DNA of 64,000 nt from positions 2,542,001-2,606,000 of the forward strand of contig JARGXX010000088.1 of the NCBI GenBank assembly GCA_030374765.1, in the 5' to 3' direction. This document shows positions 9,996-55,150 of this stretch, one piece after another (the stretch's first letter is position 1; every line of letters starts with the position of its first letter). This stretch comes from Agarophyton chilense. Its lineage: Eukaryota > Rhodophyta > Florideophyceae > Gracilariales > Gracilariaceae. The notes beneath the pieces were generated by a model, which did not search any database, was not told the origin of the DNA, and saw only the letters and a list, made by a program, of their open reading frames with translations. A program made the translations under genes and the position numbers.

Positions 9996-10012
9996 TCTAA
10001 GTCGGGAGACCA
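9996..10012 (-). other. Primer-binding site of element 1
   Basis: Two bases inside the 5' LTR the minus strand reads TGGTCTCCCGACTTAGAA. It starts with TGG as expected for pairing with a tRNA 3' CCA. The same 18 bases occur next to the 5' LTR of element 2 (30946-30963). I could not assign the tRNA. Confidence 0.75.
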
Positions 10013-15511: not shown

Positions 15512-16376
15512 TGGGTTCAGGTATGGTAATAGTGTTAACTTCTCGTTGATTTAGACAACGAAAAATGGGGCAGGCAAAGACACGCTTCTTGAGCACCTTG
15601 CAGTAATCGGCATTTCGAAATGAAGCACTGGTTGTACTTCTTTGGTATTCAGTGGCTATAAATCACCATAGAGATCACCTGTGCAGCCGCACATAGTTTG
15701 ACAAGTATGGACTCGATTCACTAAAGATGTTTTTGGGGGTTTCTGAACAGTTGCGTTCCAGTCTTCGTCTCATCTTCGTCTTCGTGTTTTCCAAGGGAGT
15801 GAGAAGTGGACAATTGGTTGGCTCCTTCCCTCTCTCTCCCCCCCCCACTCTCTAGCCTAGCCCTAGCCTCTCCCTTCCCTCGTCGTACATTTAATTACTA
15901 GGCCCGAGCTACGATATGGTACAGTACAACACTCCAAATCCTCGTATGACATCAAAGAAACAAAAATATTTAGCGAAAGGATGCCGCTCGGTCTCCCAAA
16001 AGGTGAGAATATGAGAATTGCGAAGTAGAATCAACGGAAAGATGGTCCGAAGTAACAGCTGCACAGTTCTAGGTACAGTAAGCAATGATACTGAACGGCC
16101 AAAGGTTGCGATAAGATTGCGTGCTAGACAAAAGAAAACTGCGGAGCTTGTAGTTTTTCGATGTTCCTCAGCATACATATCTCGGCGACACATTCTACCG
16201 CCCCGCCACCGCCTGCAATGGAAAAAAACTAGACTAAGCTTTCCACAGCTGAATACATTTTGATTAGACAAGTATGGCGAGCGGAATCACCTCAGCATCT
16301 CCCAATCCAAAAATCCTACATGCACTCCACATGAAACTCAAACACAGAGGATATTGGTAGCATGCATTATACCCGG
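15512..16376. other. Intergenic region, no gene recognised
   Basis: Holds a C/T-rich run at about 15820-15860 (CTCTCTCCCCCCCCC). Frames on both strands at 15909-16271 overlap and have no similarity I can identify. Confidence 0.5.
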
Positions 16377-23914: not shown

Positions 23915-24397
23915 GTGTTTTACAGATGGATGGCGATAAGGCATCGCACCTTGCAGAATATACTAACATCCGTTTTCTTTGAGAATGACAAAGTGAGTGA
24001 GACTATGGTATGTACGTATTCGTTGAGCTTTCTTCAAGATTATTTTCAACATCGCTATGAAGCAAATAGTCGACTCAAAAAGATTCATTCATTCTTAAAG
24101 AGAACCGAAATCAACATGGAAAACCTCAGGAAAATATCCGAACTCTTTGAAAACACCAGGCTTACCGATACATCTTTCATGGACAAAGAAATTGGGGCTA
24201 TCGGGACCATTTGATCTTTATCAAAGAAGTAGGCTCCTGTCACGACTTCGTAAAAGAAATCGTTTCATCTAAAAAGTAACGATTATTTTTGCCGTTCTCG
24301 CGCACCTGAAAGAAGACTTAGATTCTTTGATATTAATCTGGCTGCTTTATAGATTATTGGTTACTTCATAGAAGCCGCTGTTGGTAACAACGAAGAA

Positions 24398-25453
24398 ATG
24401 GTGGCACGAATAGTCGTAAAAGAAAATAGGAGTCTTGTTAAACCAAATTCTATCGCAGTTCTAAAAGATATTCCTAGCTCTGATCGAAAGCGTTTGAGTG
24501 GAGATGTTTCTAATTTTCTTAGGTTCATGTATTCAATCGTACGCTTCAAAGGATTTATGTATACCATGCACTACTTGCTGTACGTCCAGTTCCCTAAAAA
24601 GGGTTCGTGTCGCCTCATCAATTACCGTCTACGATGTTTGCGACACAGTAAGTACGCGAAATCTTGTCCTTCCAACCTGATGATACAATTAAACGATCTC
24701 AAATCGAACTGGAAAGTGTCACTTAACTGCACTCATTCATATGAAAGATTCAAGTTCCGTAAAGCAGATTTGCGAAACGGTTGTCAATCTCTGAAAGTCT
24801 TCATGAAGAAAAGATTACTGGAATGGCAGAAAGCAGATCTTCTGAAGACAGAAGAGTTCTGGAACTTATTTAATAGAAAATGCTTTCCTCGAGAAAACGA
24901 GTCTACAAAACTACAACGAATTTCAGATGGCGTACTATGGCTTCTTAAAGGTCTATTGTTTCATAAACCCACGGTTCCAGGCGTTCTACCAAAAGTACCC
25001 CCTCACGTTTCTTGCTGCAGTCGTATTTCTTCATTTCCAGACATTGTAGTTGCGCCTAAGAAACCAACTTTTGCACCGATTGATAGAACAATCTCAGTAC
25101 TTCCAACTTCATGGGCAAGCGGTTCTACTTCGCACAAACAAAACTCCTCGCAACCTACTTCGTATATCACTGGTTCACGGTTGATTTCACGAGGTGACGT
25201 CGGTGGCGTCAAAAATTTGGTAGGAAAAGACGTCACTGACGTACCAACCGCTTCAGGTTATTTTACTATAATTATGGAATCATCGGCTGATGGAAATATT
25301 CCTGCCATAGATACTGGTTCAAAACCCGATCTCAAGTTCAACTATATTGAGATGCAAACTATTAATTGCGCTCTATTTTACAAGGAGAAGAATGGAAAGT
25401 ACGAAGGAGATGTTAACCACGGAACCGATTCCAAACTGATTGAGAAATATTAG
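24398..25453 (+). CDS. Hypothetical protein, probable transposon part
   Basis: An open frame of 351 codons from ATG at 24398. It is Lys/Arg-rich with several Cys residues and no domain I recognise. It lies just upstream of, and in the same AT-rich block as, the decayed MULE-like transposase. It may be the element's second gene or the N-terminal half of the transposase. It has no close neighbour on the same strand that is a normal gene. Confidence that it is a functional host gene is low. Confidence 0.35.
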   Translation: MVARIVVKENRSLVKPNSIAVLKDIPSSDRKRLSGDVSNFLRFMYSIVRFKGFMYTMHYLLYVQFPKKGSCRLINYRLRCLRHSKYAKSCPSNLMIQLNDLKSNWKVSLNCTHSYERFKFRKADLRNGCQSLKVFMKKRLLEWQKADLLKTEEFWNLFNRKCFPRENESTKLQRISDGVLWLLKGLLFHKPTVPGVLPKVPPHVSCCSRISSFPDIVVAPKKPTFAPIDRTISVLPTSWASGSTSHKQNSSQPTSYITGSRLISRGDVGGVKNLVGKDVTDVPTASGYFTIIMESSADGNIPAIDTGSKPDLKFNYIEMQTINCALFYKEKNGKYEGDVNHGTDSKLIEKY

Positions 25454-25784
25454 TTTCTTGACGACGAATAAGAACTGTCTATCGATCTCATTCAACTTCC
25501 GATAGACTTGGAGTATGTGAATGGTAGAGGTACAGGTAGCAAGGTCAAGGAAAAGGTTTAGCTTCGAACACAAAGTTATGAGAGACATAAAATACCAGAC
25601 AAGTGTGAAGTTGATAATTTCTTTAAAGCAACTGTCATATCGTACTTTGGAAGCTTACCGCTTGACTCTCCTGGCCAGGACGTGATAAATGAAGTCAGCT
25701 TTATTGCATAGGCTATGTGATATAGCTTGAAGTGTAGAACGTCCATATTTCTTGGACAAAACAAACGTAGAAAGAAACCCTGGG

Positions 25785-27114
25785 ATGGCTGAAGATATGA
25801 GGGTTCTGAGGAAAAGTATGCTGAAGTGTAAAATGAAATCAGGAAAGCAGGCTTGTGGCTTTTCCCTAACAATCAAAACACTAACTCCCGAGAAGATTGG
25901 CGAGGGAAAGTCAGATGCCGGAGACTTCCAAGACACGAGACAAAATCACCCATCTTTGACAACCAGGGCCGGAATTCTCCATCTGCCTCTGAAGATGCGT
26001 AGGGAAGCCTTACACATGACAAGTAAACTACATTTTTCTCTCCCAGATAACGTAAGGTATTTTCAAGATAGATATGGAATCGTCATAAACCCAACATCTG
26101 TCCGAAAGATTTTGGGGTATGAACCCGGAATAAGTAACCCAAAAGACCTTGAATGTACGAAGCTGTTCAAGGAGTTTGTCATTTTACACGAAGAAAACGT
26201 CGAAAATAGGTACTACATTACTCACGACAGTGAAGGACCAATGGTATTGGTATGCTGGGCTTTGGCTGAGTGGATTGACGACCACAAATCGTTCGGAGTT
26301 GTCGCTGATCTTTCTATTGATTTTAAGGCAGTAGTAAATCGTTATGTATTTCCGCTGTTAACAATTAATGGGAGGTCAATTGTCGTGTTCGTCCTTATTT
26401 TCTTCACGGGGCTTGTCAGTGGTTATGCGGAATCTAAATTCGTAGATGTGCTAACGCAGTTTAAGTCCATGATTCCGAGACCACCGACCATTTTTACAAT
26501 GGACCAAAGTGCATATTGAATAGCAGCTACAGAGAAAGTATTTCAGAAGTAGTTTATTGTTTTTGATGATTGGAATGTGAATCAAAACTAAATCAAGAAT
26601 CTTACTACATCGTGTGCCCAACTTGAACGAAGCAGTTTGTGTGAGGACATGGCAATAGATCTCTTCAATATTCAGAGGTCTAAGTCCCTGGCCCTTTTCC
26701 TACAGCGGCGCCATGACTTCCAGGAAAGGTACTTGAAGCCCTTCACAAACAAATTAACTATGTGGTTTACTTATACTTATGTACACCGACCAGAAATGGT
26801 TGTTGAAAGTTTTCGAATCATTGCCGTTCCAAGACGATACCTCTTCCAAGGAACCAGATATTCTGAAGCTTTTAATTCCGGATTTCGCGTCTATGTGGTA
26901 TCTAAGAAAGTCCTGTTCTCTGACATCCGAGATCCTCGATGAATTTATTGGAGAAATACACCAGGTATCCAATGAAAAATTTTATAGAAATAAGTATAGA
27001 ACCATCGAAGAACTTTGCTGTTCGGCGGGCATTTGTCACGAATATGGAAAAGTTCACTGGCCTGAGCTGCTTTTTCAAGAAAGAAAAAGAACTGGGAAGC
27101 GAAAAGAAGACTAA
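25785..27114 (+). pseudogene. MULE-like DDE transposase, broken
   Basis: The frame from ATG 25785 to 26519 contains SVRKILGYEPG, then VVADLSIDFKAVVNRYVFPLLTI and FTMDQSAY. This is the D...D layout of the MULE transposase core, with acidic residues encoded at 26307 and 26502, about 65 residues apart. After the stop at 26517 similarity goes on in pieces: IAATEKVFQK, then DDWNVNQN, like the AI--VFP and WHVNQN boxes of MULE proteins. Stops and frame changes follow through 26942 and 27114. MULE transposases cut and paste Mutator-like DNA transposons. I could not find terminal inverted repeats by eye. A related hAT or Kolobok-like family is possible. Confidence 0.5.
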
Positions 27115-30055: not shown

Positions 30056-30942
30056 TGAAGGACAATGCCCTTCAAGGGGGTTTCTTCCCAGGACTTAGAG
30101 ATTTCGCTCGCTGGAGGACTAGCTTGGTCTAAGACAAGCTATACCGCTATTGCGTGCTGACGGCCGGTTAGGACCGGAAGTGCACACTGGTGGAACACGT
30201 GGACTGCACGGATGCCGACGCTCGAGTGCGAGGCGTGCCACACGTGGCCCGGATTCTACATAATGGTTAGTATTATTTAGAAATTTTTAGTATTTATTTA
30301 GCTACGCTATCGCTATTTAGTGTCTATTTTTCGGGCGCGCGCCCACTGTCAGGGGCCGCGCGCCACACTACTTGGAGCTTGAGCACTGCGCCCCAGTAAA
30401 TACCCTCTTGGGAGGTCCCAAGGACGGAGTCTTGGCTCTGAAATCTTCGCCTTCGGCGCGTCTTCACCGCATACTGCGTGAGCGCCCGTCGCACGTTAGG
30501 TCATCCACCCCTCGGTCGATCAGAGTGCTACCACCACCTTGGGTTCATATTTAATCGCCGACACTTGTCGTAGTCTCGCCCCTGTATAGGGTTTCGCCTC
30601 CGTTTTCCTCTTGTTCTCCTTTTTGGCTCTCGTGAGTGGCCGCCTCACTCGCCCCGCTCGCCCCCCTCATACGAATGTTTTCTCGCTCCTTTTCCGACAA
30701 TCGCCGTGATACCGCTCCGCTTAGGATTGGTCACACCCCGGACTGTGCCGTGCTCGCCTAAACACTCTAGGTATATCCCGCCGGATTGGCCTCGGTCTTA
30801 AACCCGACTTCGCCGTGCCTTTCCAGGGTGGCTCTGTTTCTGTGCTCCGCTGGGACGCGTCTCCTTCGTCTGAGGCTTGTCTTTCAAGAGAGATAGATCC
30901 CGAACATCTTCGTGGTGTCTCCGCTCCAAGCGTTGTCTTACA
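30056..30942 (+). repeat. 5' LTR of element 2, 887 bp
   Basis: Runs TGAAGG...TTACA. The first bases form an inverted repeat (TGAAGGaCA-A-TGCCCTTCA, one mismatch here, perfect in the right LTR). It contains a GC-palindromic stretch GGGCGCGCGCCC near 30334. Confidence 0.93.
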
Positions 30943-30945
30943 AAC

Positions 30946-30963
30946 TGGTCTCCCGACTTAGAA
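30946..30963 (+). other. Primer-binding site of element 2
   Basis: TGGTCTCCCGACTTAGAA three bases after the LTR, identical to the element 1 site. Confidence 0.8.
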
Positions 30964-31107
30964 GTTTGAGTCGGGCACACTCAGTTACGATTAATCGGAA
31001 AGAGGACTCACAAATTGAGGTTGATCTCAGTTGCCCTCTTTGAATAGGTTTCTTGGCCCCACTAGCCGATCGGGGTTGGATACTCACGTGTAACGGATTC
31101 TGATCTC

Positions 31108-33168
31108 ATGTCTTCCAAAGACCGTCCGAGGACGTGGAGTCAAACCGGTGCACCGGAATCATGGCAACCATCCCGTACTCCGGTCTGTTCACGGTCTCAT
31201 ACCGGTGGATCGACTGGCGTGCCAGGTGGAAGGGCCTCGAGACCTCCTGCCTCTGATTCGACACCCCCAGCAAGTGGAGCAGGACCGGCGTCTGCCACCG
31301 CCCAGATGCTCTCCCCTGCTAGCGATGTCACTCCCCATCCCAGCCTTGCAGCTGTGGAAGAGCAACTCCGCTCTATGCGAGAAGCTCAAGTCATCCTTGC
31401 AGAGAAGTTCGATTCCCTTCGCAAGAAGGTAAATGACATTGCTACGAAGGATTTTTCTGAGGACCTCCGTGTCCTCCGTGCGGATGTGAACTCGATTCTA
31501 GAGTCCCTTGGTGGACCCTCGGCCTTTGTCAAGGACGTCGCGGACAAGTTCTCGCGCGTCCAAAGCAGTCTCGAGACGTTGGAACAAACGCTAATGTCGG
31601 GGGATGATCCGGCCGAGCCGGTTGCAGTATCCCACAAGAAAAGAAATGAAGAGAACCACCAGGCTCGAAAAAAGCGAAGGAACACAGATCCCGAACCTTC
31701 GGATTCCTCATCCTCGGAGTCCGACTCTTCCAATTCATCGGTGGAAGTAGCTCGCCTTGAGCGTTCCTCACGTTCTAAGCGGTCAACAGCCACCCATGGT
31801 GTGATCAGCGCCCGCACGAAGGGAAGGAAGCACACAGGTTTGAAGGAGCTGAAACCGACCAATTAGCTCTTTAAGAAGCTCTTATCATACCGGTACTAAG
31901 GTTTGGAGGACTCCTCTTTGGATCGTACACCCCGTGGTACGGGAAGAGTGAAGGACTGCATTAAGCGAATGCAGCTCTCACTACGAAACAAGTTGTTTTT
32001 TGGAGAAGACCCAATATTGGTGTTGGATTTCTTGGCACGCTTTGTCGCGGAAACTGACATCCATGGAATGAACGAGGGACAGGCCTACATTGCCTTACCG
32101 TACTTCTTACGTGGGCTTGCAGAAGACCAGTATCACTCTGTCAGAGGTTCATCACGCGCCTCCGCAGGAGGGGCCACATGCTGGCCTGAAGCAGTTCAAT
32201 ACCTCCTGAGGTCGTATGCTACTAACTCCGCCATTCAGCAGGCTATACGCGCCCTGCGGGACACTCGCCAACGTCCAGCCGAGTCGGAAACCGATTATTC
32301 GTCGAGCCTGAACAAGGCCTTCCACCGCTGTGGCAATGTTTACCCCACTGAAAAGCGTTGCACCATGTTTGTCGATGGTTTCGACCCGGCGATGAGGACT
32401 CTTGTTACTCGACGTCGAGAAGATAGACCTAAAGCCACGTATTTGGAACTGGTGCAGTTCGCTTGCGCAGGAGGTGAAGCCCTGCGCGCACGCACTCCCG
32501 GCTCCAGGGTTAGGTCCGCAAAAGCGTTGATGTTACAACCGGGTACCCCGTCAGCTTCGATGTTCGACGAACAGGCCTCTCGAAGGGATTACGATAACGT
32601 GCTGCTAGCCCATAGCGACGTTCATTCCATCCCGACAACGGAGTTACCCTCAACGTTGGACGAGTCACAATACGTGATTGAGGATGACACGCTACTCTAA
32701 GCGGATAATGGTCGCGTACCTGCGCCACGCGTCCCACACGAGAGTGGTCATGTCCGCTTTTCGCGTCTTGGTTGGAGAGATACACGCCCCGCGGTGAAGT
32801 TCGCCGAGCCTCGCCACCCAACACCGGCTTCTGGCCTGATTTGTCATCTCTGCTACAAACCAGGCCATTCTTCTCCACAATGTGTGTTGTCTCTCCGAGA
32901 ATGGGCACAAGTCGTAGTCAATTACGAGGCCCTATCCTCGGAGGACAAAGCAGCTATCCCGATTGCATCGTATATCCGTGCTCGAACGGATGTTCCACGT
33001 CACTTGTCGCCTCCCCGAGCTCGGGTCGTACCTGCACCGGATTCCCGTGTCACCGACGTGGTCGGTCACCCCACCGCTTCTGCGGTACCTTCTGGACCTG
33101 ATGCCCAGGCGTTGCCCGCTCAACGTCCTGAGCAGCCGCCTCCGGCGGAGCAGGCCCAGAAAAACTAA
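31108..33168 (+). pseudogene. gag: Gag of element 2 with three nonsense codons
   Basis: From ATG 31108 a single frame runs to TAA 33166-33168 with no frameshift, but with TAG at 31864-31866, TAA at 31897-31899 and TAA at 32698-32700. The protein follows element 1 Gag: a Ser/Pro-rich start, a coiled-coil region, an acidic Ser tract (SSSSESDSSNSS), DPILVLDFLARFVAETD, CWPEAVQYLLRSYAT, and knuckle CHLCYKPGHSSPQC (C-x2-C-x4-H-x4-C). Because only point stops have accumulated, the ancestral gene is easy to trace. The end AAA AAC TAA is shared with element 1. Confidence 0.9.
33159..33168 (+). promoter_or_regulatory. gag/pol junction with candidate -1 frameshift site
   Basis: G AAA AAC at 33159-33165, followed by the gag stop TAA. 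Pol is open in the -1 frame as GAA AAA CTA. Matches the element 1 junction. Confidence 0.6.
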
Positions 33169-36100
33169 ATGTAGGAGTCTCCTCTCAAGGAGGGGCGCCC
33201 TCAGAGTCGAGGTCGACGGCGCCCGAAGCGTCCAAGCCTCGCTCCCCGGTCAAAATCCTTTCAAGGAAAGAAACCGTCAATGACGTGAATTCGGAACACT
33301 TTAGTGTTCTGCGTCTTCCGTGGAAACGTGTTTCCCACAACCGGTTCCCGGATAGAGTTCTGGTGATGGCCAAGAGAAACTACAAGGTTTATGCTGACCT
33401 TGGCCTTTCACCCCAGTTTATGGAGCGACACCTTACCGTCTTAGACACCGGTGCCGGTCCGAACTTTGTCGTGGAGGAAGTGTTACCGCCTGCTTTGCAG
33501 TATAGGATCCGCCGTGACCACATCCCGGAGGTCGCTGACGCGAACAACAAACCGTTGGATACGGTGGGATTCATAGAACTGGTAGTCCGCGTTGGCACTC
33601 GCGTGGTGAAATTCGACTTCGTCGTATGTCGGAAATTAGCCGCCCCAGCCATCTTGGGTTGCGACTTTTGCGACCGCTTCGTCGAAGCGATCTTCCCTCG
33701 CCAACGGCGTGTCGAGATGGAGGATGGATCGTCCACTCCGATCGTTCGTCGTCCGCTTAGGCGTGCCACGAAGACGCATGTCCCGCTACCGGCAGCACAG
33801 GAACCTGGACCGGATAACCGTGAATCTAATAAGCTCCGCGTCGCAGCGTCGTTGTGCGTCCCGCCTGAGTCCCAAATGATGGTGAAAGTAACATCCCGTC
33901 AACACGGACTCCGGGTCTTGCAACCATTGTCGTCACTGTATGACAGGCACAGCCTCGCAATTGCGAATGGAATCGTCCATGTGGAGCCAAACCAACCGTT
34001 TCACGTGCTGATAGCCAATCTAGGGACTGTACCCCAGTATCCGGTGAAGAACCAAGTGATAGGATCCGTCATGCCCCACCCCATCGCTATGGTGCCGACA
34101 AAGCTGACCGCAGCTGACGTTCTCGGACTCGTTCACTCTAAGGAGAGGGGCAGCTTGGAACCCGTTTCATCGCCAGTACCCGGGGTTCAACCTGTAAAAT
34201 CAGGGACGCAGTCCGTTTCAACGAGTGGTGACCGCCCCGATCCAGTCCATGAGCTCGAGGACCTGGATCTCAGCCACGTCCCGGATTCATACCGCCATCG
34301 ATTGCGAGAACTTTTAAGGGACTTCACCACTATGTGGGACGGCTCCCTTGGTGAGATTGTCACTACGGAACACCGGATTGATTTGCTACCGGACACCCGA
34401 CCCCTCTCTCAGCACCCATACCGTGCTGGACCCGCCGCACGCGCGGAGGAAAAAGCACAAGTGGATAAAATGCTTCGAGCAGGAGTCATTGTACCGGCTC
34501 AGTCGCCGTGGGCTTCTCCAGTAGTACTGTCTCCAAAGCAGGATGGTTCCGGGAGGTTTTGCGTCGACTACCGTCGGTTGAATGCCGTCACCGTCAAGGA
34601 CGTGTATCCAATCCCAATAATGGACGAGTACATTGACTCGCTGGGCGCCTCCACCGTTTTTACAACCCTGGACGCCAATTGGGGATACTGGAAAGTTCCG
34701 GTAAGGAAGCAAAACCAGGATAAAACCGCTTTCACGTGTCACTCCGGTCTCTACCCTTTCAAACGGATGCGTTTTGGTCTTACCAACGCCCCCGCCACTT
34801 TCCAGCGAACCATTGAAATCCAATTGGCCCGCTTCAAATTGCGTACCTGCCTGTTCTACCTGGATGACATAATCGTCTTCTCAGATAATCTGGACAAACA
34901 TCCCACTCATGTGAGGGATATCATGACCACGCTTCGAGATGCGGGTGTCACTCTTAAGTTGAAGAAATTTGACTTCTTCACAGACACCGTGAAGTATCTC
35001 GGCCATGTTATCCGTCCAGGACGTGTTACAATCCAAGAGACTCGTGTTAAGTCACTCAAAGAGGCTAAAGAACAGCGGACGCAACCGAGCTTCGTTCCTT
35101 TCTGGGACTCGCGAACGTCTACCGACGATTCGTCCTGCACTTTGTGGACAAGGCTGCACCTTTAAACACGCTTTTGCGGTAAGGCCACCCACCAAAACTG
35201 GACCCCTTAACCCCCGTCCAAACGGAATCTTTCAACTCTCTTAAGGATTCTGTCGTCTCCGCCCCGATCCTCTCGTTTCCCAAGCCTGGAAGGCCCTTCA
35301 CCGTAGATACGGACGCCAGCGACTACCAAGTAGGTTGTGGACTGTTTCAAACTGCACCCAATGGGGAAAGACGCCCCATATGATACTGGTCCCAACCGCT
35401 AAACGTCCACGAGAAGAATTACTCCATCTCGGAGAAGGAATGCCTTGAATTAGTGTGGGCATTACAAACGTTGCGCCCCTATCTCATAAGTAATCATTTC
35501 ACCGTTTTTACGGACCAGGCATCACTTCGATGGTTACTCTCCATCTCGGAGCCTTCAGGCCGCTTGATGCGTTTGCGTCTCCGTCTAGCGGAATTTGACT
35601 TTGAGGTGCAGTACCGAAATGAATCGTGCAACACCCAAGCCGATGCTCGCTCCTGCCTAGTCACTACTGGCGAAGCACTACCCGTCAAAGACGATGAAAT
35701 ACCCTGCTTTGCAATGAATGGCGACGACGCTACCATCCAGGACGAGGAACGAGAGACGGACTCTTCAGATTCCGGTTCCGAATTGGAAGACTTTCTTCTC
35801 TCGGAAGATCCCGAGAAACACTTACCAGGGAACTTCGTGCCTATTACTCCAGAAGAGATGATACGGGAGCAATTCGCTGACCTGTTCTGAGCGAAGGTCG
35901 GCGCTCAACTCAATGGAGGAGGTACTCTCTCTTTCAGGTGAATGACGCCGGATACCTTGTACAGACCGTCGGATGGCACCCACAAATCGTGGTACCACAT
36001 AACCTCCAGTCGAGAGTCTTGCTGTTGTCGCCCTACTCCAAACTGAGTGGCCACTTCGGGGGACGGAAACTTTACCTCACCCTACGCCGTAACTTCTGCT

Positions 36101-37271
36101 GGTCTGCCATGGCAGTGGACTGCTACGCAACGGTGCGGTTTTGTACCGATTGCGCTCGGAACCGTGTCAAACTCCGCCCCCATGCGACGAAGTTGAAGCT
36201 GTTTCCAGCTCGCGCTGCATTGGAGTTTGTGGCCATCGATATACTCGGTCCCTTCCTTACCACTAAGCGGAATTACAAGTTCTTACTCGTAATTACGGAT
36301 CTTTTCTCAAAGCTGGTCCGGAGCGTACCGTTACGGAAGATCTCCGCTATGAGCGTGGCTCAAGCCTTCGTCCTACACTGGTTCTTCGTCTACGGTCCAC
36401 CGGTCAACCTCCTCTCCGATAACGGGAGACAGTTCGCCTCTCGTTTCTTCGAGGATGTGTGTCGCATCTTGGACATTAAGAACCTGTTCACGACCACTTA
36501 CCACCCCCAAACTAATGGGCAGGCCGAACGGTTCAACCGGACATTACTTGCGACACTCCGTTCATACGTTGCAGACAACCCCAAAGATTGGGACTTGTTC
36601 ACTGATGCACTCACCTTTGCGTACAATACGCAGGTGCACAGGACAACTGGATTAACCTTAGAGCTGGTACTGTCCCGTACCCCACCGCCCGTGGCGCTGG
36701 AACCACAGCCCACGCTGGATACATTTCAGCCACCGACTGCTTTCCGCGAAGCGTGAAAAACTTGGCTCACGAAGCTCGTTCCCGCCGCACGGCGTTCAAT
36801 GGGCCGAGCCCAGGCCGCTTACAAGCGTGACTTTGATACCAAAGCCCCTCGCTCGCCGCCACGTCTCGCCCCCGACGGTTATGTATTCATCCGCAAGGAG
36901 TATTGGAACCCAGAGAAGGAGAAACGCCACAAGCTGTCACCCGTTGCCGACGGTCCCTTTCGGGTTATTTCGGTGGCTCCCGACACTGTCGTTGTTGACC
37001 TCACTGGTAATCACGAACGCATCTCCCGCGATCGCGTGGTATCGGCTCCTCCGCCGTTAACATCCCAACCTACTGGTGTGACTGCTCCCGTTGAAACGGA
37101 TTCCTCGACCCCCTTACCCCAGGTCTACCCGCGTCCCTACGCGTTACCACACCCATCTCGGGGTTTGTCTGACCTTCCGCTACCCGCGGCGCCTAACCCG
37201 CAAGGAATCGTGTCGCGCATTCGTCGCTCCTCCCCAGTCCACCCGACGGACACCAACTCCGGTGCATCGTC

Positions 37272-37284
37272 TAAGGAGGGGGAG
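37272..37284 (+). other. Internal polypurine tract of element 2 (candidate central PPT)
   Basis: TAAGGAGGGGGAG, identical to the element 1 terminal and internal tracts, in the C-terminal pol linker at the position matching 3612-3624 of element 1. Confidence 0.55.
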
Positions 37285-38381
37285 GCGCCCGACAGCCGTC
37301 GTAATCCGGTAGATACCGTCGCTGGAAACGCCTAACCGTCGCGCATTCTTCGCCCATCAGGGGTGCCTGATACCGACGTCCTGCACGACTCGAAGCAGTC
37401 GCTATCCAAGCCTCAGAACGCAGCTGCGGATAACGCCACCAACACTCTCCGAGGTGTCACCACACGTGCAATACGGAATGCAAATGTGCTCGACGCACTG
37501 CAGCCTGATACAGTACGAGTGGACGACGCACCGCCAAGTACCCCGCACAGAGAGGCGGATACATCCACGGCGCTGACGCCGGACAGCCAGCCATTGCAAC
37601 GCTCACGTGACTACACGGAATCTCCCCGTGGGACAGAGAGGTGCGACAATGCGCCACCGCCCCAGCGAATCTCACCGCCAAAGCGAGCTTCACCACGCCG
37701 ATTAGCGAAACGACCACCCGGGTTACCCGCTGGTGTGGGCCCTCCAACCGGAGTGGGAAGCGCCGACACAAGCCCGGTACTTGGGGAAAATGAACCGTTG
37801 AAGTCGGTTCGACATTCTAATCAGCCGAGGACTGCCTTGTGCGCTACAAGGTCCGACCGGAGCGAAGCCGCACAACGCGTGATCACTTCGGTACCCCCTG
37901 GCTCAGGATGGGTACCACCTGGAAATAGCGACACCGTCATACGGGATGCCCGGGAAGTGTACCAACAATAGTTCGTGATCGGGTGCATTTTGGAGCACTC
38001 CTACCACCCAAAGGGGTATATCCAATACTTGGTCCGTTGGTACGGGTACGGCCCCGAATGGGATTCAGACGAACCGATAGAGCACCTACCTCGGTCAAAG
38101 GTGGTACAGTATCATCGTCGTACTGTCACGACTTTGCCAGCTACCATAGACCGAGCCCAAGTGTGATAAGAAGACACCCGATGGGGATAAAGGAACAGAA
38201 GATCTGGATAAGGCCCCTTGGAAGAAGGAGAAGATGCACAGAAGACCTGGAGAAGAACACTCAGAAGAAGTGGAGGAGAAGAAAGAAAACAAATACGTCA
38301 TAGACGGAAGCAGTTTACTATTTTCGAAGTTGCTGCACACACTACCGCACAGCGGGATATACTAACCAAGCTCACAAGGGA

Positions 38382-40250
38382 TTAGTTGGAAGAACCCGGA
38401 TTGCCGTGCGCGCCAGCCCAATCGCTAGCGAAGTTACTCCCGGCGGTCAGGCGTGCCACGAGGGCGTCTCTCATCGTACCGATGTCGCCGCTCGCCGCTT
38501 GCGCGTTCAGTCCAACACCCCGAAGGAACTGGGAGATCACGACCGCCTCTGGGCGTATGGGAACCTTGATAACTTCCGGTTCTTCTGGCAACGCCGCCGC
38601 CACTGGATCGATGACCGCACCTGCGTGAGTCGCTCCCTGCGCCGGCTGCGCCGTAGTATCGGCACCATAGGGGTCTCCTACGTCTTCCATGACCTCGTCG
38701 CCACGGTATTCGCCCTCCTCCTCCGGGAGATCATCACCGCCATAGGCGTAGTAGAAGTCATCCGAGGTGACAAACCCCACGGGGAGCCCTTATGGTATGC
38801 CTTGCAGAGCCCTCTGGAGTGCCGACGCCTCCGCCTCGGAGATCTCTTGCTGCTCCCATGGGTTAAAGAAGATGAAATCTCCCGCCAACGGCGTGCGACG
38901 TCCCGGAGACCGATCAGCCCCACCGGCTTCTTGACCACGGCCGCTCTGCCGGACAGGCACGACAGCCCATTCGACACGCCCAACGATGTCGATGAGCTCC
39001 TGAGCTTCATCAGCGTTATTGACACCTCCAAGAGGGAGTTTAAGGTCCAGCTGCCGGATGTAACCACGCATACGCGGAGGAGGATACCACAGTCGATACT
39101 GGTCGTAGGCTTCCCACAAGATGTACGCCGCGGCGCGGACTGCCCATTCGGTTAGGACCACGGACCATAAGCTGGAGTGCGGATCCTCGATGAGGTACGA
39201 GCACAGATAAAAGACGACTGGAGGCAACTCCACGTAACATCCCCGGCACACCTCGACGGAGGACCACCACCCAGACAGGGGAACGTATCGCCCGAACTGA
39301 TAGAAGGGACTAATCTGGTTTATCTCCGTGTTCTGATAAGGGACAAGGAACCCAAAGCGGGATCTGCCCCGGCGCTCCTCGCGGATGAAGTTCTGTAACC
39401 ACCGATATCGGGACTCATGACGAAGGTGAGAGAACTCGGCACGAATGATCGGAAAGACCCAGCAGATCGCTTCTTGACGCGCTCGCGGTTGACCGCGCCA
39501 TGCGTAAGTTTCCAACGCCGCAAGGCGGTCACAATAGCCGATCTCACCCTGAGTCCGGTACATCCGTAGGTCGAAGCCGAATTCGTCGGAGATGGGGTAT
39601 TGAAAGTTCGCCCGGTTGATCCGTCAGTAGCCAATGCGGATGAATATACAATGCGCCTCTTCCGCCGACTCGCGCCTTCGCCGCAGAATCGCGTGAACGG
39701 GAACCGCCACACGGCGTCGCCATTCCCACGAAGTGGTGATCAAAGCCGGCAGCTCGCCCGGGAGACGGTCACTGCCATCAGCATACGCCGCCACGAGTTC
39801 TTCGTCGAAGACAGCTGTCGAATGGAACCACGGAGCTCTCCGGAGAATCGCCGCATGTTGACGCGGGTTTAACCCAATGAGTCCCTCGTAGCTGGGCCAG
39901 GTGTCCTCCGCAGGAGTGATGTGGCTTGAAGCTTCAACGGGACCCCGGGATCGGCTCGGCGCGGTTGACGAGGCACTCCCCCGCGGAAGGGGAGCCGAAT
40001 GGAAACCGGAGAAGTAACCCCGGCGGGGATTGTTACCACCGTTCATCAAAAGTACTTGTCGCCGAGGTATCGGGATGTGGTCGCAAGAAGTTGGCGTACG
40101 ATGCGGAAGAGCGCTCGAAGTTCGAGGAGTGGTTACCGCGTTGGTGCGTTTGTCGTTCGGTTGTGCAGCTCTGCCTTCGACAGTCGAGTGGTCGCTGGAC
40201 GCGTTACGCGGCTCGCTCTTATGCCGGTTGGACCGTTGCCTCCCCGCCAT
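38382..40250 (-). pseudogene. Antisense accessory ORF of element 2, 623 codons with two in-frame stops
   Basis: From ATG 40250, 36 bases inside the 3' LTR, one minus-strand frame runs to 38382 with no frameshift. It has stops at 39624-39626 and 38790-38792. Around both stops the alignment with the element 1 product continues without a gap, so they are point mutations. It has an Arg/Ser/Pro-rich start, then RGYFSGF, RAPWFHSTAV, SRFGFLVPY, SGWWSSVEVCRGC, EWAVRAAAYILWEAYDQYR, IFFNPWE, and a Pro/Ala-rich acidic end. I recognise no domain. It lies opposite to gag-pol and would need an antisense transcript, perhaps from the 3' LTR. Confidence 0.8.
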
Positions 40251-40271: not shown

Positions 40272-40285
40272 TAAGGAAGGGTATA
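40272..40285 (+). other. Polypurine tract of element 2
   Basis: TAAGGAAGGGTATA directly precedes the TG of the 3' LTR. It resembles the element 1 tract but has lost part of the G run. Confidence 0.7.
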
Positions 40286-41173
40286 TGAAGGGCAATGCCC
40301 TTCAAGGAGGTTTCTTCCCAGGACTTAGAGATTTCGCTCGCTGGAGGACTAGCTTGGTCTATGACAAGCTATACCGCTATTGCGTGCTGACGGCCGGCTA
40401 GGACCGGAAGTGCACACTGGTGGAACACGTGGACTGCACGGATGCCGACACTCGAGTGCGAGGCGTGCCACACGTGGCCCGGATTCTACCTAATGGTTAG
40501 TACTATTTAGTAATTTTTAGTATTCATTTAGCTACGCTATCGCTATTTAGTGTCTATTTTTCGGGCGCGCGCCCACTGTCAGGGGCCGCGCGCCACACTA
40601 CTTAGGAGCTTGAGCACTGCGCCCCAGTAAATACCCTCTTGGGAGATCCCAAGGACGGAGTCTTGGCTCTGAAATCTTCGCCTTCGGCGCGTCTTCACCG
40701 CATACTGCGTGAGCGCCCGTCGCACGTTAGGTCATCCACCCCTCGGTCGATCAGAGTGCTACCACAACCGTGGGTTCATATTTAATCGCCGACACTTGTC
40801 GTAGTCTCGCCTCTGTATAGGGTTTCGCCTCCGTTTTCCTCTTGTTCTCCTTTTTGGCTCTCGTCAGTGGCCGCCTCACTCGCCCCGCTCGCCCCCCTCA
40901 TACGAGTGTTTCCTCGCTCTTTTTCCGACAATCGCCGTGATACCACTCCGCCTAGGATTGGTCTCACCCCGGACTGTGCCGTGCTCGCCTAAACACTCTA
41001 GGTATATCCCGCCGGATTGGCCTCGGTCTTACACCCGACTTCGCCGTGTCTTTCCAGAGCGGCTCTGTTTCTGTGCTCCGCTGGGACGCGTCTCCTCCGC
41101 CTGAGGCGTGTGTCTCAAGAGAGGAAGATCCCTAACATCTTCGTGGTGTCTCCGCTCCAAGCGTTGTCCTACA
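40286..41173 (+). repeat. 3' LTR of element 2, 888 bp
   Basis: Matches 30056-30942 along its length with scattered substitutions and a one-base indel. Starts with a perfect 19-base inverted repeat (TGAAGGGCA-A-TGCCCTTCA) and ends CCTACA. Confidence 0.93.
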
Positions 41174-48045: not shown

Positions 48046-48420
48046 TATGAAAATTGCATTGACTTGCCATTTTGAATGAACATCTTCGGCATTCAAATAC
48101 AAAACCCTTGTGCAACATTTACATGACCAAGTGCAAATATTCACGTGAAAACTCTTCTTTACATGACCAAGTACAAATATTCACGTGACAACTCTTCAAC
48201 ACTAAGTATGCAACGTCACTCCTGCTGAACAGCTCCACTATCTCTCTTTGCTTTCTTTGTCTACTTATACTGCTCTCCAGTTCGCAATCCTCAAGAAGAA
48301 GACAGCGGACTTCTCGATACCATATATTCTACTAAAGCTTCTTATTTGTTCTACCTGCACCGCTCGATCTCAACAGTTCCTGCCGATAGCTCCAACCGAT
48401 CTAAGTTCCCTCTCTTCTTA
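48046..48420 (+). repeat. 5' LTR of copia element, 375 bp, with a 40-bp internal duplication
   Basis: Matches 52913-53246 except for an extra tandem copy (48121-48160 and 48161-48200) of a unit that holds TCACGTGA. Begins TATGAAAA and ends TTCTTA. Confidence 0.9.
48121..48200. repeat. 40-bp tandem duplication in the 5' LTR
   Basis: Two copies of ACATGACCAAGT-CAAATA then TTCACGTGA. The right LTR has one copy. The palindrome CACGTG is a typical bHLH/bZIP site. Confidence 0.85.
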
Positions 48421-48434
48421 GTTATGGGCCCAGG
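48421..48434 (+). other. Copia primer-binding site (half-tRNA type), overlaps gag start
   Basis: GTTATGGGCCCAGG directly after the LTR is complementary to CCTGGGCCCATAAC. Eukaryotic initiator tRNA-Met has nearly this sequence in its anticodon stem-loop (CTGGGCCCATAAC). Drosophila copia uses such an internal tRNA half as primer. The ATG of gag is at 48424-48426, inside the site. Confidence 0.8.
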
Positions 48435-51400
48435 TAATAACCTACCCGCTCGTCCCAAGTTCTCGTGGGATATCAAGAGCGTTCCCTGGACAGATGGTCG
48501 CGGAGATCAAGAAGAATATGCGAAAGCAGTTAATTTGTGGAGTTCATTTCATGATCGTCTTCCGGACAGCAACTCTAATAAGATACCCAGCGAACTTCGT
48601 GGCATATGTCTTAAGTCGCAATTTTTTGGACGCGCTCGAGACCTCTGTACAGGCATCACTGATGATGTAATTGCGTCTGCTACTGGTGCGCAAAGTATTG
48701 TTGATGTCCTCCACCAGCGTGATGCTCTTACAGTTGTCATTGAAGTCTACCGTGACTTCAATGAGCTACTGTCTACACGCCGTGGAACAAATGAAACGCT
48801 TCGTGGCTTTGAGTCTCGTTTCGCCGCTCAAGTCGCAAAGTTCAACTCATTTGCTACCACCACCAAGCTACCTGAATCGCTTACAGCTCTCATGCTATTG
48901 TCAAATGCCTCTATTGAAAACTCCCAGCGTGTATCGGTACTGGCTGCCGCTGCTCCATCTACTGCAAACCTTACCAACCAGTCATCGAATGATGACTTCA
49001 TTCAGGCAATTTCCTACCAATCCGTCTCCTCAGTTATAAGACAATGTGACCGTCCCATAGTCACCAAAGGCAGCTCTTATGATCAAAATCCAATTGTGTC
49101 AAACTCTGCAAATGCCAATTACCGTTCCAAAAATCGCCGAGAACGCCGCAAGTTGACACCAAGTCAACTAGCAGATCTCAAGTCTCGTTCTCAGTGTCAC
49201 AAGTGTAAGCAGTATGGTCACTGGTCTTCTGATCACAACGCCGATGGTTCGCTCAAGGCGAATACTATATCAACTGAGGCACCTCAATCATCGAGCTCAT
49301 CAAGCTCCAACCACAATGACTCATCGCAGTCTGGTTACACGAAGGGGAAGACCATATCGTTCAACATGGCCCAACTATCTCCTCCTGAGCTCGAGGAGCC
49401 CTTATCTCCAGAAAATCTCGGCCCCTTGGTCGACGATGGCGCTCCCTACTCAGCCATAGAGTTAACTGAACTACAGCTTCTTAGCTCCCACCTGCTTCCC
49501 TGTTTCAATGGGCAGCTTGATGAGATACCTGATGCTCTATCTGGTCGTAGCTCATGGCAATACGGCTCTGGAGAACATGCTAGTGGCACCCGAAGCATTC
49601 TTGGCTCCGTGGTACTCAACCTGATCTCCGACAATGGCAACATAATACAGATACGCCATTTAGTTCTATCTGGCTCGTCGCAATGAGTTGTTGGTCGAAA
49701 CGTGACATGCTACAGTAACATCAACCATCTCGACTCCAACGCTTTACTGTTCTCCAGTCACAACGGATCCCGTGACTCGATTACTATGGTTGACTATGAT
49801 CTACACAGTTACATACCCTATCACACTTTTGCAGCCGCAACTCCTAATGCGAGTCCCATCGAAAGAAAAACAGCTATTTGTTCCCTTTCTGCTACTACGG
49901 TCGACACAAAACCGTGGCCTGAAGTCAAAAAAATCATTGACAAAGTTCATAAGCACGTCTGTGGACATTCATCATATTCAGACATCAAGACACTGCTGCA
50001 ACGCAACAAACTATGGAGTGATGAGGTAAACCGCTACCTATCACAACTAATTGTCAACTGTGTCGATTGCAAAGCTACCGCTCTGCCTAAATCAGCTCGA
50101 AAAGTTTCGCTCAGCTCTCTCAACCGTGAATTCAATGATGTAATATGCATTGATCATTTTTATCTTGACATGCTGATGGTATTCCATATAATGGACTCCT
50201 GGCCTCGCTACTCTGCAGGATTCGTAGTAGAAGATGCTACGCTCAGCTCAGCCATTTCCGGGTTTCAAGCCGCATGGATGTCACAGTTTTGGCCACCAAG
50301 TGCCGTTCACGGAGACAACGCTTTCAAGAAGACTGAGTTTCTTGACTATTTAAAAGCTCATGACATCGATTTTCGACCCGTTCCCCCTCTTCGGCACAGC
50401 AAGAATCCAATCGAATCCAAGCATGGCATCATTAGAAGTATATATCTACGACTGAAATCATCTCATATTGAATCCATCTCCCCCAAGACACTGGCGTATC
50501 AAGCGATACGTATATCCAACGACCTCTATGGGTCCGATACTCTTTCTGCGTTTGAGATGGCAAAAGGATTTACAAAGCCTATCGATGGCAAGTACCTACC
50601 CTCACCTGTATCTGAAGAGTTGCTACATGCGCAAGAGACGCTTGCAGCTAAACGTAAGCTTACTCTGATACTTCGTTCCAAGGCCCTTACTGAACCGAAG
50701 ATCAACACCGGCGATCTAGTTCAAGTCTATCTTAAGCGCAATCATGAGAAACGTGGAAAATGGTTATCTCCGCGCGCAGTTATATCCATAGATAACTCAG
50801 CTCGCACCGTTTCAGTTACTGGTTCCAATGGCAGAACAATGTCTGCTGCTATTGAAGACGTTCGTCCAGCAATTATTGACGACCCATTCGCTACCCAAGT
50901 TCAAGAAAGCATCGATTTGCTTGATGATAGCATCTCAGATATGCTGGATAGTTCCAATGTCAGCTCCCACAACGACTCCAACCATGCAGATACCAACGAG
51001 TCGAACAATGCACAAGACCACGAGTTCACTGCTGATGAATTGTCTACTGTCCTACCGTCCATCGGTGACGCAGTTGAAGTATTCTGGCCGCTCGATGATC
51101 AGTTTTACCCCGGTGTAGTCTCTGCAACTGATGAAAATGGATTACATCACATTCAAAATAATGATGGTGAATCCGAGGAGCTCGATATCTCAAAGGAAAC
51201 CTGGCGCTTCACCAAAGATGCGCTATCAGGTAACACCGCCGATATTGGACCGTCAGAGTTTGCCAGCTCTGAACCTCAAGCTCTTCAAGCTCTACTTGAT
51301 CATTTTGGCAACAAGTCCTTTCTAAGGCACCAAGCTCAAGGATTTCAGCAATTTCCGTTAGTTAATGCTTACTCCATGGAAGAATCAGCATTCTGCAAAA

Positions 51401-52890
51401 CCGTGAAGGCCGTCCCAATCTCAGAAGTTCCAACAAATGCCAATATTATATCAAGTCATGTTATCTACAAGATCAAGATCAACGATGATCGCACGCTTAA
51501 ACTCAAGGCCTGCATTGCTCCGCATGGAAATGAAGACAGCCAGAAGAATGACCTCAAGACGGACTGCTGTCAGTGTCCACCAACCGGCATTCGCATTCTT
51601 CTCTCAATTGCCTCTTTATTTGGATGGCGTTTAAGCAAGCTCGATGTCAAGAGCGCCTTCCTGCAAACTGGGGATGCTAAGAGGGATGTTTATGTTGTCC
51701 CTCCCCGCGAATGTTCGAAACGCTCCCATTACTGGCTTCTGCTCACTGCTGCCTATGGACTCGTCAACGCCAATGCTAAATGGCAAGTGCAATCCGATAA
51801 GCTCATGCTGGACATAGGACTATCCCAACTCGCCTATGTACCGCAGTTATTTTATAAGATGAACAACGGCAAACTAGTTCTAGTTGCCATCAAGATAGTT
51901 GACGACGTCCTCGCAACTGGCGAAACATCCGCCGTCGACCAAATTATTCAATTGTTCAACAAGAAGTTCAAACTTGGAACTGTCGCTCATGGTCCTCAGC
52001 TTCTACGCTTCTACGGCCTCAACATAGTTCAAAAGGAAGATTATTCAATTGAAATCAACGCTTCAGACAAGCTGTCCGCTCTTGAATCGTTTCCGATATC
52101 GCGTCTTCGTCGGAAACAATATGATGAACCGCTTAACAGTATAGAGCACTCTGCCTATACCTCGCTCAACAGTTCAATTGGATGGCTCGGGATTTCTGCA
52201 TCCCCCTCCTGTGCATTCTACGCCAGCTACCTTCAACAACGTCTACCGTCTCTCAAAGTATCTGATCTCGTCTGCCAAATCAACTCGGTTCGCACGCTCA
52301 AGAAACTTGGAACCTCTATTTCGTTTCCAAGGCCATCCGGTTACAATGAGTACTCACTTTCTGTACTCGTCTTTTCTGATGCTGGTCGCCCCAGCGACTA
52401 CGGACAACTCGGCTTTGTTGCTGGTGTTCTACTCGGTGACCTCAAGAAAAATGCAATCTTTCACACGTTATCCTGGACCTCACACAAGTCCAAGCGCCCC
52501 GTGAAATCAATCGGTTCTGCAGAGATACTTGCCGCGTCTGAAGCTATTGATGAAGGGAAGGTTTTATCCCAAGGACTCAGCCTATTGCTTGACACACATG
52601 TTGACCTACTGATTGCTGTCGACTCCATGGATCTATACACATCGCTGTCTACACAACGCAATTCGATCGACCGTTCTATTCGTGCTGATGTCAACTGCAT
52701 ACGCTTTGAGTTCGAGACACACTCAGTTAACAAAATACTATGGGTTCCTGGACAACAGAACCTAGCAGATCCAGCTACAAAAACCGATTCACCCCTATCA
52801 CAAACCCTGCAGCTTGCAATGCATTCAGGGACTATACCAGTTGACTTCCCAAGAGCGCTATTCCGAAGCTCTTGTCAATCCCTCGGGTAA
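48424..52890 (+). CDS. gag-pol: Copia Gag-Pol polyprotein, one in-frame TGA (49684-49686)
   Basis: A single 1,488-residue frame from ATG 48424. Gag is about residues 1-300, with a knuckle CHKCKQYGHWSSDH near residue 258 (C-x2-C-x4-H-x4-H, last Cys replaced by His). The protease motif LVDDGAPYSAI follows. TGA replaces a Trp codon at 421. The integrase has VHKHVCGH, CVDC, ICIDHFYLDM, HGDNAF and NPIESKHG. The RT has LDVKSAFLQTG and an IVDD active site (residues 1158-1161), where most copia elements have YVDD. RNase H has FSDAGRP, SAEILAASEA, AVDSMDL and NLADPATK. Only the TGA prevents full translation; readthrough or mutation are both possible. Confidence 0.93.
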
Positions 52891-52898
52891 GATTAACT

Positions 52899-52912
52899 CC
52901 AAGAGGAGTTAA
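52899..52912 (+). other. Polypurine-rich tract of copia element
   Basis: CCAAGAGGAGTTAA lies directly before the right LTR start TATGAAAA. Confidence 0.6.
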
Positions 52913-53246
52913 TATGAAAATGCATTGACTTGCCATTTTGAATGAACATCTTCGGCATTCAAATACAAAACCCTTGTGCAACATTTACATGACCAAGTAC
53001 AAATACTCACGTGACAACTCTTCAACACTAAGTATGCAACGTCACTCCTGCTGAACAGCTCCACTATCTCTCTTTGCTTTCTTTGTCTACTTATACTGCT
53101 CTCCATTTCGCAATCCTCAAGAAGAAGACAGCAGACTTCTCGATACCATATATTCTACTAAAGCTTCTTATTTGTTCTACCTGCACCGCTCGATCTCAAC
53201 AGTTCCTGCCGATAGCTCCAACCGATCTAAGTTCCCTCTCTTCTTA
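52913..53246 (+). repeat. 3' LTR of copia element, 334 bp
   Basis: Nearly identical to the 5' LTR apart from one missing 40-bp unit and a few substitutions. Ends TTCTTA. Confidence 0.92.
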
Positions 53247-53251: not shown

Positions 53252-55150
53252 GATGAAAAGATCGACAACGGTGCTGACTTTGAAGCAGAAAACGATTACA
53301 GCAATGATGCGAATGTCGTAGATCGCTTAAAGATCTTCTGGCCACTTGATGATCAGTTCTACCCTTGAGTTATTCGCTGTGCTGAAGACGACGGATAAAA
53401 GAACGTCCATTATGACGACAGCGGTAAAAAAGTCCCAGACATGACCAAACAAGTCTAGAATTAGACCGACAGCCTGTCGCAAAGCCTCCCCGCAAGCTCA
53501 TGCAAGATCCAAAAAAGACGGGAAGTGCAAATCCAAGAGGCTACAGTGTTGCAGTAATTACTAGGACATTTTGCCAATAAACCGTTTTGGCAGCACCACT
53601 ACCAAGGTTTCGAGCAATATTCCATGGTGAATTCTTACAAGAAGGAAGAGGAGAGTTTTTTAAAAACGGCTAAGCCCGTGCTTCGTAGACTAGTGCCACC
53701 TGGTGCTAATATCATCAGCAGCCACATGCTTTATAAAATTAAACAAAACGAAGATGGGAGTTTGAAACTCAAAGCGCGCATAGCGCCTCGTGGAAATGAA
53801 TATGACCTCAAAGGTGTGTTGAACAAAGACTGTTCAACGTGCTCATCCACAAGATTGGGGATATCAGAAAGCATCCTGTCGCTGCACGGATGGACACTGC
53901 ATAAAGCAGATGTCACAGAAGCATTCCTGCAAACAGGAAAAGCCCAAAGAGACGTATCCGTATGTCAGCCAAAAGAAAGTAGGTGGAAAGCTGCGCATGT
54001 GTGGCTACTTTTGGCGGCAGCATGTGGTCTTTTGAACGCAAATTCCAAGTGGCAGAATGCCTCAGACAGTGTGATACGACAGATTGGTTTAATTCAATCT
54101 GCATATGTCCCACAGTTATTCAACAAAAAGCATAACAGAAAATTGGTGCTAATAGTAGCCGAGATAGTTGATGATCTGAAAGTTGCAGGCAAAGGCAACA
54201 AAGTAGAACACTTCCTTGCAGAGTTTCACGAAAAGTTTAAATTCGGAGTGATCAATACAGGTCTAGAAAAAGTTAAGTTCTTTGTTATCAATACGATACA
54301 GAACAATGAATTCACAGTGGAGACCAACGCAGACGACAAAATGGACGGAGTAACAGAGTATCTAATATCACGTTCGAGAAGAAAGAAGTAAATGATGCGC
54401 TCAACAAGATCGAGAAAAGTTCATATGTCTCCGTGAACAGCTTAGTAAGCTGGATAGTCACGGCGGCTTCCGCAATGTGTGATTTTTACAGTACCTATAC
54501 GTAAGAAAAAGCACCAGTCCTACGCGTATTGCCTTTGGTCGAACAGATCAATACTGTTCGTATGCTGAAGAAGCTAAGCACCACAATTTTCTATTCAAGG
54601 CCTACCGATCGCAAAAACAATGTTTTAAGTATTGTAGTATTCTTCGACACAACAAGGATTGATGAAGTTCGGCAGCTCGGCATAGTGAAGAAACTAATGA
54701 TTGGATCGATGGAGAAGGATGCCATTTATCACGTTGTATCGTGGAAGTCACAGATATCTAAACGACCTGTTAAGAGCGTACCCGTGACAGAGATTTTAGC
54801 AGCTGATGAAGGCAGTGCGGAAAAGAAAACGGCAAGAAGGGCATATTGAAAACTACTGGACGTTGAAATCAGCCTGAAGAAACTAGTCGATTCAAAAGAC
54901 TTGTTTACGTAAATGGCCACGCAAAGAAACTCCATTGGAAAATTCATTAGAGGAGATATTGGCAGCAAACTCGTTGAGTTCGAAAACGGATGCGCAGAAT
55001 CGATTTCATAGATACCGGGATCTTTCAACTTAGCAGATCTCCCTACGAAAAAAGATAGTTGTCTAACTGATGCTCTTCAGTTGAAAATATACACTGGTCG
55101 ACTGAAAATCGACTTTAATGATGTATCGGAAACCAAAAGCTCGAAAAAAA
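53252..55150 (+). pseudogene. Copia relic pol, second part (RT and RNase H)
   Basis: Continues the interrupted relic: KIFWPLDDQFYP (about 53330). The RT frame 53624-54391 has SSHMLYKIKQNEDGSLKLKARIAPRGNE, KADVTEAFLQTGKAQRDV and AEIVDDLKVAG. RNase H pieces (54529-54849) have VEQINTVRMLKKL, VSWKSQISKRPVKS and TEILAADE, then NLADLPTKK (about 55025). Stops and shifts occur throughout. The IVDD active site is the same as in the intact element. Confidence 0.85.

Follow-up and report, generated by a model that had tools for sequence, protein, structure and literature searches.

Two Ty3 elements lie in the window, the whole stretch of 64,000 nucleotides analysed here (C88:2542001-2606000), which was taken from the genome of the red alga Agarophyton chilense (79.76 Mb, 135 contigs). 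Element 2 is on the plus strand and is bounded by a 5′ LTR (30056-30942, plus) that pairs with a 3′ LTR (40286-41173, plus); the pair is 96.1% identical over 893 aligned bp with 34 mismatches, and the element is flanked on both sides by the 5-bp repeat GTATT, a target duplication. Its primer-binding site (30946-30960, plus), labelled from its place behind the LTR, matches that of element 1 exactly, and a polypurine tract was assigned at 40273-40285 (plus), its label and bounds being taken from place and composition. The gag region (31066-33168, plus) consists of three open pieces with a Retrotrans_gag match and a weak zinc knuckle match under the cut-off. The pol region (33132-37971, plus) consists of several open pieces, in which reverse transcriptase (RT) and integrase were recognized by Pfam and the RNase H piece was assigned by similarity to element 1.

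Element 1 is on the minus strand, and the window start cuts its 3′ LTR at the inner end, leaving only 1-69 (minus; inner edge at about base 69) in the window and the remainder outside it. Its pol (3222-7850, minus) has 1542 open codons with Pfam matches, numbered within pol, to RVT_1 (494-654), RNase H (746-849) and integrase (973-1144), and its gag (7880-9832, minus; 650 open codons) was identified by similarity to element 2 gag, having no Pfam gag match of its own. The primer-binding site (9998-10012, minus) is identical to that of element 2. The 5′ LTR was placed at 10015-10937 (minus), the TG start giving its outer edge and the primer-binding site its inner end; the stretch matching the 3′ LTR is 10168-10943, with 97.55% identity between the two LTRs over 776 bp. 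RT, RNase H and integrase follow in that order in pol, showing that both elements are Ty3/gypsy; element 2 has paired LTRs, a primer-binding site and the 5-bp duplication, and element 1 an LTR pair and a primer-binding site. The initial annotation had called both elements chromoviruses. A chromovirus would have a chromodomain at the integrase C-terminus; no Chromo match (E up to 1) was found in element 1 pol or in four element 2 pol pieces, and domain content does not support the label for either.

The window also holds a Copia element (48051-53246) with LTR-like repeats at 48051-48420 and 52917-53246, two long frames and an RVT_2 match in 49687-52890, as well as what looks by eye like a second Copia fragment (53558-54391). 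Two neighbouring uninterrupted transporter-like genes are present at 12099-13085 and 14567-15550 (minus), the first being EamA according to Pfam and the second paralog-like by eye. Two open frames at 24353-26519 have no Pfam match and are possibly a degraded DNA transposon, MULE-like by eye. Long uninterrupted host frames of 898 and 655 codons were also seen, together with one of 660 codons that is open to the window end. Elsewhere in the genome, the phycobilisome linker family gave 13 matches: contig C39 holds seven, among them a three-linker frame, and six other contigs hold one each. Such matches suggest a red alga or a glaucophyte, and the long uninterrupted host frames favour the former. 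The three-linker frame occurs twice on C39 (39186-40895 and 224870-226579, about 185.7 kb apart), a pattern suggestive of a plastid genome whose assembly contains more than one unit.

In both elements, a frame on the strand opposite to gag-pol lies in the interval between pol and the 3′ LTR, at 149-2004 (plus) in element 1 and at 40250-38382 (minus) in element 2, as the initial annotation had reported. The length of about 620 codons given there was borne out. The frames are not continuous, as the lesions mentioned there imply, each consisting of two or three open pieces. The element 2 frame spans 622 codons from the ATG (40250-40248) to the terminal stop (38384-38382) and is broken by in-frame stops at 39626-39624 and 38792-38790; the element 1 frame begins with the ATG at 149 and is interrupted by an in-frame stop at 530 as well as a single frameshift near 1174-1210. 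Given LTR divergences over the aligned lengths of 3.3-3.9% (element 2) and 2.4% (element 1), and with 3.6% of random substitutions creating a stop, neutral decay since insertion predicts about one stop per copy. Because the number of lesions is close to this prediction, the window copies were presumably intact or nearly so at insertion, and we infer that their lesions are consistent with post-insertion decay. The collinearity of the two proteins noted earlier also held: between copies of family 1 (that of element 1) and family 2 (that of element 2) that have long open frames, identity amounts to 38-39% across 504-555 aligned positions, or to 43% across 434. When the stretch holding the frame was simulated 2000 times with a Markov-1 model, the longest of the six frames averaged 172 codons and reached a maximum of 387. 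The region had been said to have no long sense frame; this does not apply to family 2, in which a sense frame of 283 codons (38304-39155, plus) recurs in copies. No protein constraint was seen in the phase of this frame (sense shift 0).

The antisense gene is present in hundreds of copies in the genome. The back-translated motif RAPWFHP gave 341 exact genome matches and none in the reversed control. The core of the family 2 frame gave 140 scored matches from 1642 first-look candidates (81-91% identity, self excepted) and a piece of the family 1 frame gave 150 from 1431 candidates (92-96%, self excepted), numbers that are lower bounds since the genome search scores the best candidates only. The primer-binding site of element 1 with the five following bases occurs 654 times within one mismatch (control, 0). 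An unbroken frame of at least 570 codons was found in 8/20 (family 1) and 5/30 (family 2) of the top-scoring copies, and dozens more such frames with no stop occur among the 150 family 1 matches listed; among the 70 copies fetched from families 1 and 2, the frame is unbroken in 23 and measures 570-667 codons. The start codon is kept in 19/20 family 1 and 46/50 family 2 copies. The aORF-3R class is defined by a long antisense ORF between pol and the 3′ LTR that the family conserves. Such an ORF was found in the two window elements, for which the LTRs were mapped; the other families described below were placed by homology of the antisense frame.

Codon variants among the RAPWFHP matches listed led to five further loci, four of which contain long homologous stretches. 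L078 (family 3) has 588 open codons and is 49% identical to family 2; L080 and L081 (family 4) have two open pieces each, 45-47% identical to family 1 in the main matches; and L079 (family 5) has pieces of 455 and 120 codons with about 39% identity. The remaining locus, L077, contains only a degraded homologous stretch. In their main tblastn matches the three further families are 37-49% identical to family 1 or 2, and the family representatives are 29-51% identical pairwise when a 3-position overlap is left out. In families 3 and 5 too, a Met stands at about the position of the predicted start. These results show that homologous antisense frames occur in at least five families.

A tree of 28 antisense proteins separated families 1, 4 and 5 from families 2 and 3 with high support, in an analysis whose bootstrap had not settled, with long branches for families 3 and 5 and a midpoint root only. 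Families 1 and 2 appeared in it as star-like bursts. Co-inheritance of the RT and the antisense gene was compared in four families. The RT has four informative sites, split 1:2:1, and the antisense protein splits 17:2:2 and 18:6:0 for families 1 and 4 against 2 and 3; no conflict between the two trees was seen in these four families with few RT sites. The piece fetched for family 5 (L083) contained no RT. The RT of L082, a locus assigned to family 3, matches family 1 better (81%) than family 2 (72%). The antisense protein of family 3 has the opposite preference, resembling family 2 more than family 1; module exchange between families is a possible explanation of this pattern, in which L082 and L078 are only assumed to belong to the same element.

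The antisense frame evolves as a protein-coding gene. For the core, comparison of 8 unbroken family 1 copies with 15 of family 2 (120 pairs) gave a pN of 0.40, a pS of 0.70 and a dN/dS of at most about 0.27, a bound because dS between the families is saturated. This demonstrates constraint on the core; the N- and C-terminal parts are too diverged for a between-family ratio. For the N-terminal part, the median-based dN/dS among family 1 copies is 1.22. In nine between-family comparisons, made with one natural copy per family and with family 4 in two pieces, pN/pS was 0.42-0.66 and all bootstrap intervals lay below 0.75. The antisense frame showed 44% residue agreement and no stops between families 1 and 2; in the other five frames 21-39% of residues agreed, and stop columns numbered 10-28 per 352-353 codons. 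A dN/dS near 1, or equal constraint at synonymous sites and in all frames, had been named beforehand as the outcomes that would speak against selection on a protein; neither was found between families. Constraint on the nucleotide sequence rather than on the protein is ruled out by the frame comparisons, and a chance open frame by the simulations together with the homology across families. The antisense protein evolves faster than pol, since the pN of the pol pieces is just 0.22-0.29 compared with 0.40 for the antisense core.

The variants within families, each counted as one change from the commonest codon, showed a similar tendency. In the 70 copies, the ratio of nonsynonymous to synonymous variants was 1131:439 for singletons and 436:254 for variants shared by two or more copies (Fisher p = 1.9e-5); taken by family, the contrast was found in family 2 (p = 2.4e-5) and was not significant in family 1 (p = 0.079). 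The within-family ratios were 0.83 and 1.03 for single-copy variants and 0.46 and 0.62 for variants in four or more copies. This pattern fits selection during replication and near-neutrality after insertion. Similarly low ratios were obtained for sense shift 2 (0.32 and 0.68 for shared variants; pN/pS 0.62), because the third positions of that frame coincide with those of the antisense frame, and sense shift 2 averages about 28 stop columns per 352 codons. Codon usage failed to single out the antisense frame. The initial annotation had spoken of past purifying selection on the protein; selection is supported, but "past" is too weak a description in view of the unbroken frames in 8/20 and 5/30 of the top copies.

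The composition of the predicted protein was determined for three natural proteins, one each from families 1, 2 and 3. The N-terminal part (111-138 residues) is 31-38% Ser, Pro and Thr. The core, cut at 360 residues, is 13-14% Trp, Tyr and Phe with balanced charge, and many of its positions are identical in the three families. The C-terminal part is acidic, with acidic:basic ratios of 12:1, 23:5 and 22:6 in families 1, 2 and 3, respectively. The highest 19-residue mean hydropathy was 1.03-1.39, and the usual threshold for a transmembrane segment over such a length is 1.6; a membrane helix is thus not likely to be present.

Searches of Pfam, PHROGs, NCBIfam, PDB sequences (with single proteins and a profile) and phage records gave nothing above noise for the antisense protein, nor did Pfam for the window antisense pieces. 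Pfam searches with nine members of alignment A2 likewise gave none above noise, the best E being 0.25, to another family than Transposase_28 (PF04195). These searches named no known family, and the decision of the initial annotation to leave homology to the Grande type open was sound, as the lack of a Pfam match above noise means none to TRP28/PF04195. Scans with two short peptide patterns, which reach only relatives retaining the motifs, found 48 stretches in IMG/VR viral contigs and 110 in GTDB contigs, and no relative was confirmed among them. The profile of the antisense protein showed no similarity to gag or pol of element 1, and an origin from either was rejected on this ground. As judged from sequence comparison, the antisense protein is a new family, named by none of the libraries searched.

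Other antisense ORFs were seen downstream of further Ty3 RNase H matches, namely in L074 (384-1814, minus; 477 codons) and in L073 (342-1754, minus; two open pieces), whose position in the same slot was judged by distance from RNase H only. The two have a common short C-terminal stretch (37% over 60 residues; E 2e-7 in a single comparison), and L074 is unrelated to the first antisense family by BLASTP and profile. L074 gave 33 genome matches, 21 of them at 23-47% identity and mostly to its C-terminal part; the place of L073 is absent from them. With its Cys-His-Asp order, the C-terminal part of L074 and L073 may resemble a papain-like cysteine protease, an identity for which Pfam and NCBIfam gave no confirmation. 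L071, L072 and L075 contain no full relative of either antisense family. In L072, a single stretch of 36 residues matches the LTR-proximal start of the family 2 frame (61%); L071 and L075 have other antisense frames, up to 205 codons long in the former and 227 in the latter. It is conceivable, and we propose it only tentatively, that the antisense slot between pol and the 3′ LTR of Ty3 elements in this red alga has repeatedly been filled by unrelated proteins, the Trp/Tyr-rich family described here and a possible Cys-His-Asp protease family. If so, the slot would serve generally as a niche for regulators, expressed from the LTR while sense transcription is silent, and would have evolved independently in algae, plants and fungi.

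Further Ty3 groups were also observed. RNase H matches with identical scores occur on contigs C40, C42-C45, C47, C49, C51, C54, C55, C59 and C126, and RNase H matches exactly 6523 bp apart on one strand, four on C49 and three on C44, show a 6.5-kb Ty3 unit arranged head to tail. A third Ty3 family (L071; C4, C28, C86, C88 and others) has many RNase H matches of identical score and frames of 1587 or 1626 codons, and looks very young; the piece fetched for L071 contained no relative of the antisense gene.

The antisense start codon is located inside the element, 35 bases from the inner edge of the 3′ LTR in element 2 and 79 bases in element 1. Because these distances are so short, the 3′ LTR likely carries an antisense promoter. 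The antisense mRNA would begin inside the 3′ LTR and run toward pol, tail-to-tail with it. A search of the 450 bases preceding the ATG gave no conserved TATA-like box shared by the two families: in family 1, such boxes lie at -17/-19 in 10-11 of 19 copies, too near the ATG, and in family 2 they occur in single copies among 31. The protein would be a soluble accessory factor that regulates the element; its targets might be LTR transcription, the ratio between sense and antisense RNA, or nuclear handling of the element RNA. The regulatory role is our best guess, made by analogy with the nuclear Grande protein and with the antisense regulators of HTLV that are driven from the 3′ LTR. Taken together, we consider it reasonably probable that these are Ty3/gypsy elements with an antisense gene for an accessory protein between pol and the 3′ LTR, promoted by the LTR and probably encoding a soluble regulatory factor.

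Several other explanations were weighed against this one. The length of the core (about 360 residues), its richness in Trp, Tyr and Phe and its many identical positions resemble a globular domain more than a short regulator, and would agree with a structural or enzymatic aid to the particle or to integration (env-like, capsid-accessory or targeting) translated from the antisense RNA. Such a helper is nevertheless unlikely, given that the hydropathy maxima of 1.03-1.39 do not point to the membrane helix of an env-like protein, that the profile is dissimilar to gag and pol of element 1, and that an antisense mRNA would be an unusual source for a structural protein. The same dissimilarity to gag and pol would also be explained if the gene were the remnant of another mobile element's protein or of a host gene that an ancestor acquired a single time, in antisense orientation, and that has retained its former function, for example DNA binding. 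The unrelated protein in seemingly the same slot of other Ty3 families is what would be expected if the slot tolerates captures; yet Pfam gave no transposase or host family match above noise, and no cellular copy outside the elements was seen among the best-scoring genome candidates, and we regard such a capture as quite improbable.

That the selected product is the antisense RNA itself, acting through double-stranded RNA or small RNAs, with the open frame incidental, has some precedent in the discussion of antisense transcription of retroelements with possible RNA-level effects (PMC7264820). Selection at the RNA level would however not be expected to leave a protein-type pattern of substitutions and long unbroken frames, making this explanation very doubtful. 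The 283-codon sense frame of family 2 shows that long frames do arise here, and an accident in GC-rich DNA could in principle have produced the antisense frame as well; with a maximum of only 387 codons in the simulations and with homology in five families, the probability of such an accident is close to negligible.

Antisense additional ORFs are known in Grande, RIRE2, Retand and PvRetro13 of plants and in Boty of fungi, and the role of antisense accessory genes in LTR retrotransposons is called unknown in the plant literature (PMC11963269, PMC7264820). As far as these descriptions go, the algal gene resembles the aORF-3R of Grande, RIRE2 and Retand in being a long antisense ORF between pol and the 3′ LTR of a Ty3/gypsy element, in many copies and of unknown function, but its host is a red alga and not a plant. 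The Grande antisense protein is reported to be nuclear, and the aORF-3R of the Retand lineage is described as mostly having a TRP28 domain (PF04195) (PMC11963269, PMC7264820). Unlike Retand and Grande, the algal protein has no Pfam match above noise and hence no TRP28. In the algal elements 35-79 bases separate the ATG from the LTR; for the Grande gene, use of a promoter in the region upstream of the gene has been reported (PMC7264820). Like the algal gene, the antisense gene brtn of the Boty-like elements of Botrytis cinerea, described as of the pol-3′ LTR class, is found outside plants (PMC7264820, PMC8365987). Bdelloid rotifer LTR elements, which carry ORF3 of the env, DEDDy, GDSL, CC and TM types, are similar in having acquired an accessory ORF; in what was seen of that source their ORF3 is not described as antisense (PMC5408684), and the algal protein has no Pfam match to those types.

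In retroviruses, hbz of HTLV-1 and aph of HTLV-2/3/4 are described as antisense genes under negative-sense 3′ LTR promoters (PMC10186651). The algal gene would be like them an antisense protein gene with an LTR promoter, the latter suggested here by gene position. HBZ is a 31-kDa bZIP protein, whereas the algal protein is expected to be roughly 68 kDa (622 residues at 110 Da) and has no bZIP match in Pfam. No relation to the Grande or the HTLV HBZ/APH proteins is claimed, and the proposed likeness is one of role only. In the titles and the beginnings of abstracts of the open-access papers searched, no report of antisense ORFs in red-algal LTR elements was found, which is weak evidence of absence. 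Most descriptions of antisense extra genes in Ty3-type elements come from plants and fungi, and a young, high-copy family with many unbroken frames in a red alga provides a separate lineage whose natural variation spans at least five families and hundreds of copies, which would allow antisense transcription from the LTR and the location of the protein to be tested directly. In comparison with Grande, Retand and Boty, the architecture is a known one, and the protein family is new.
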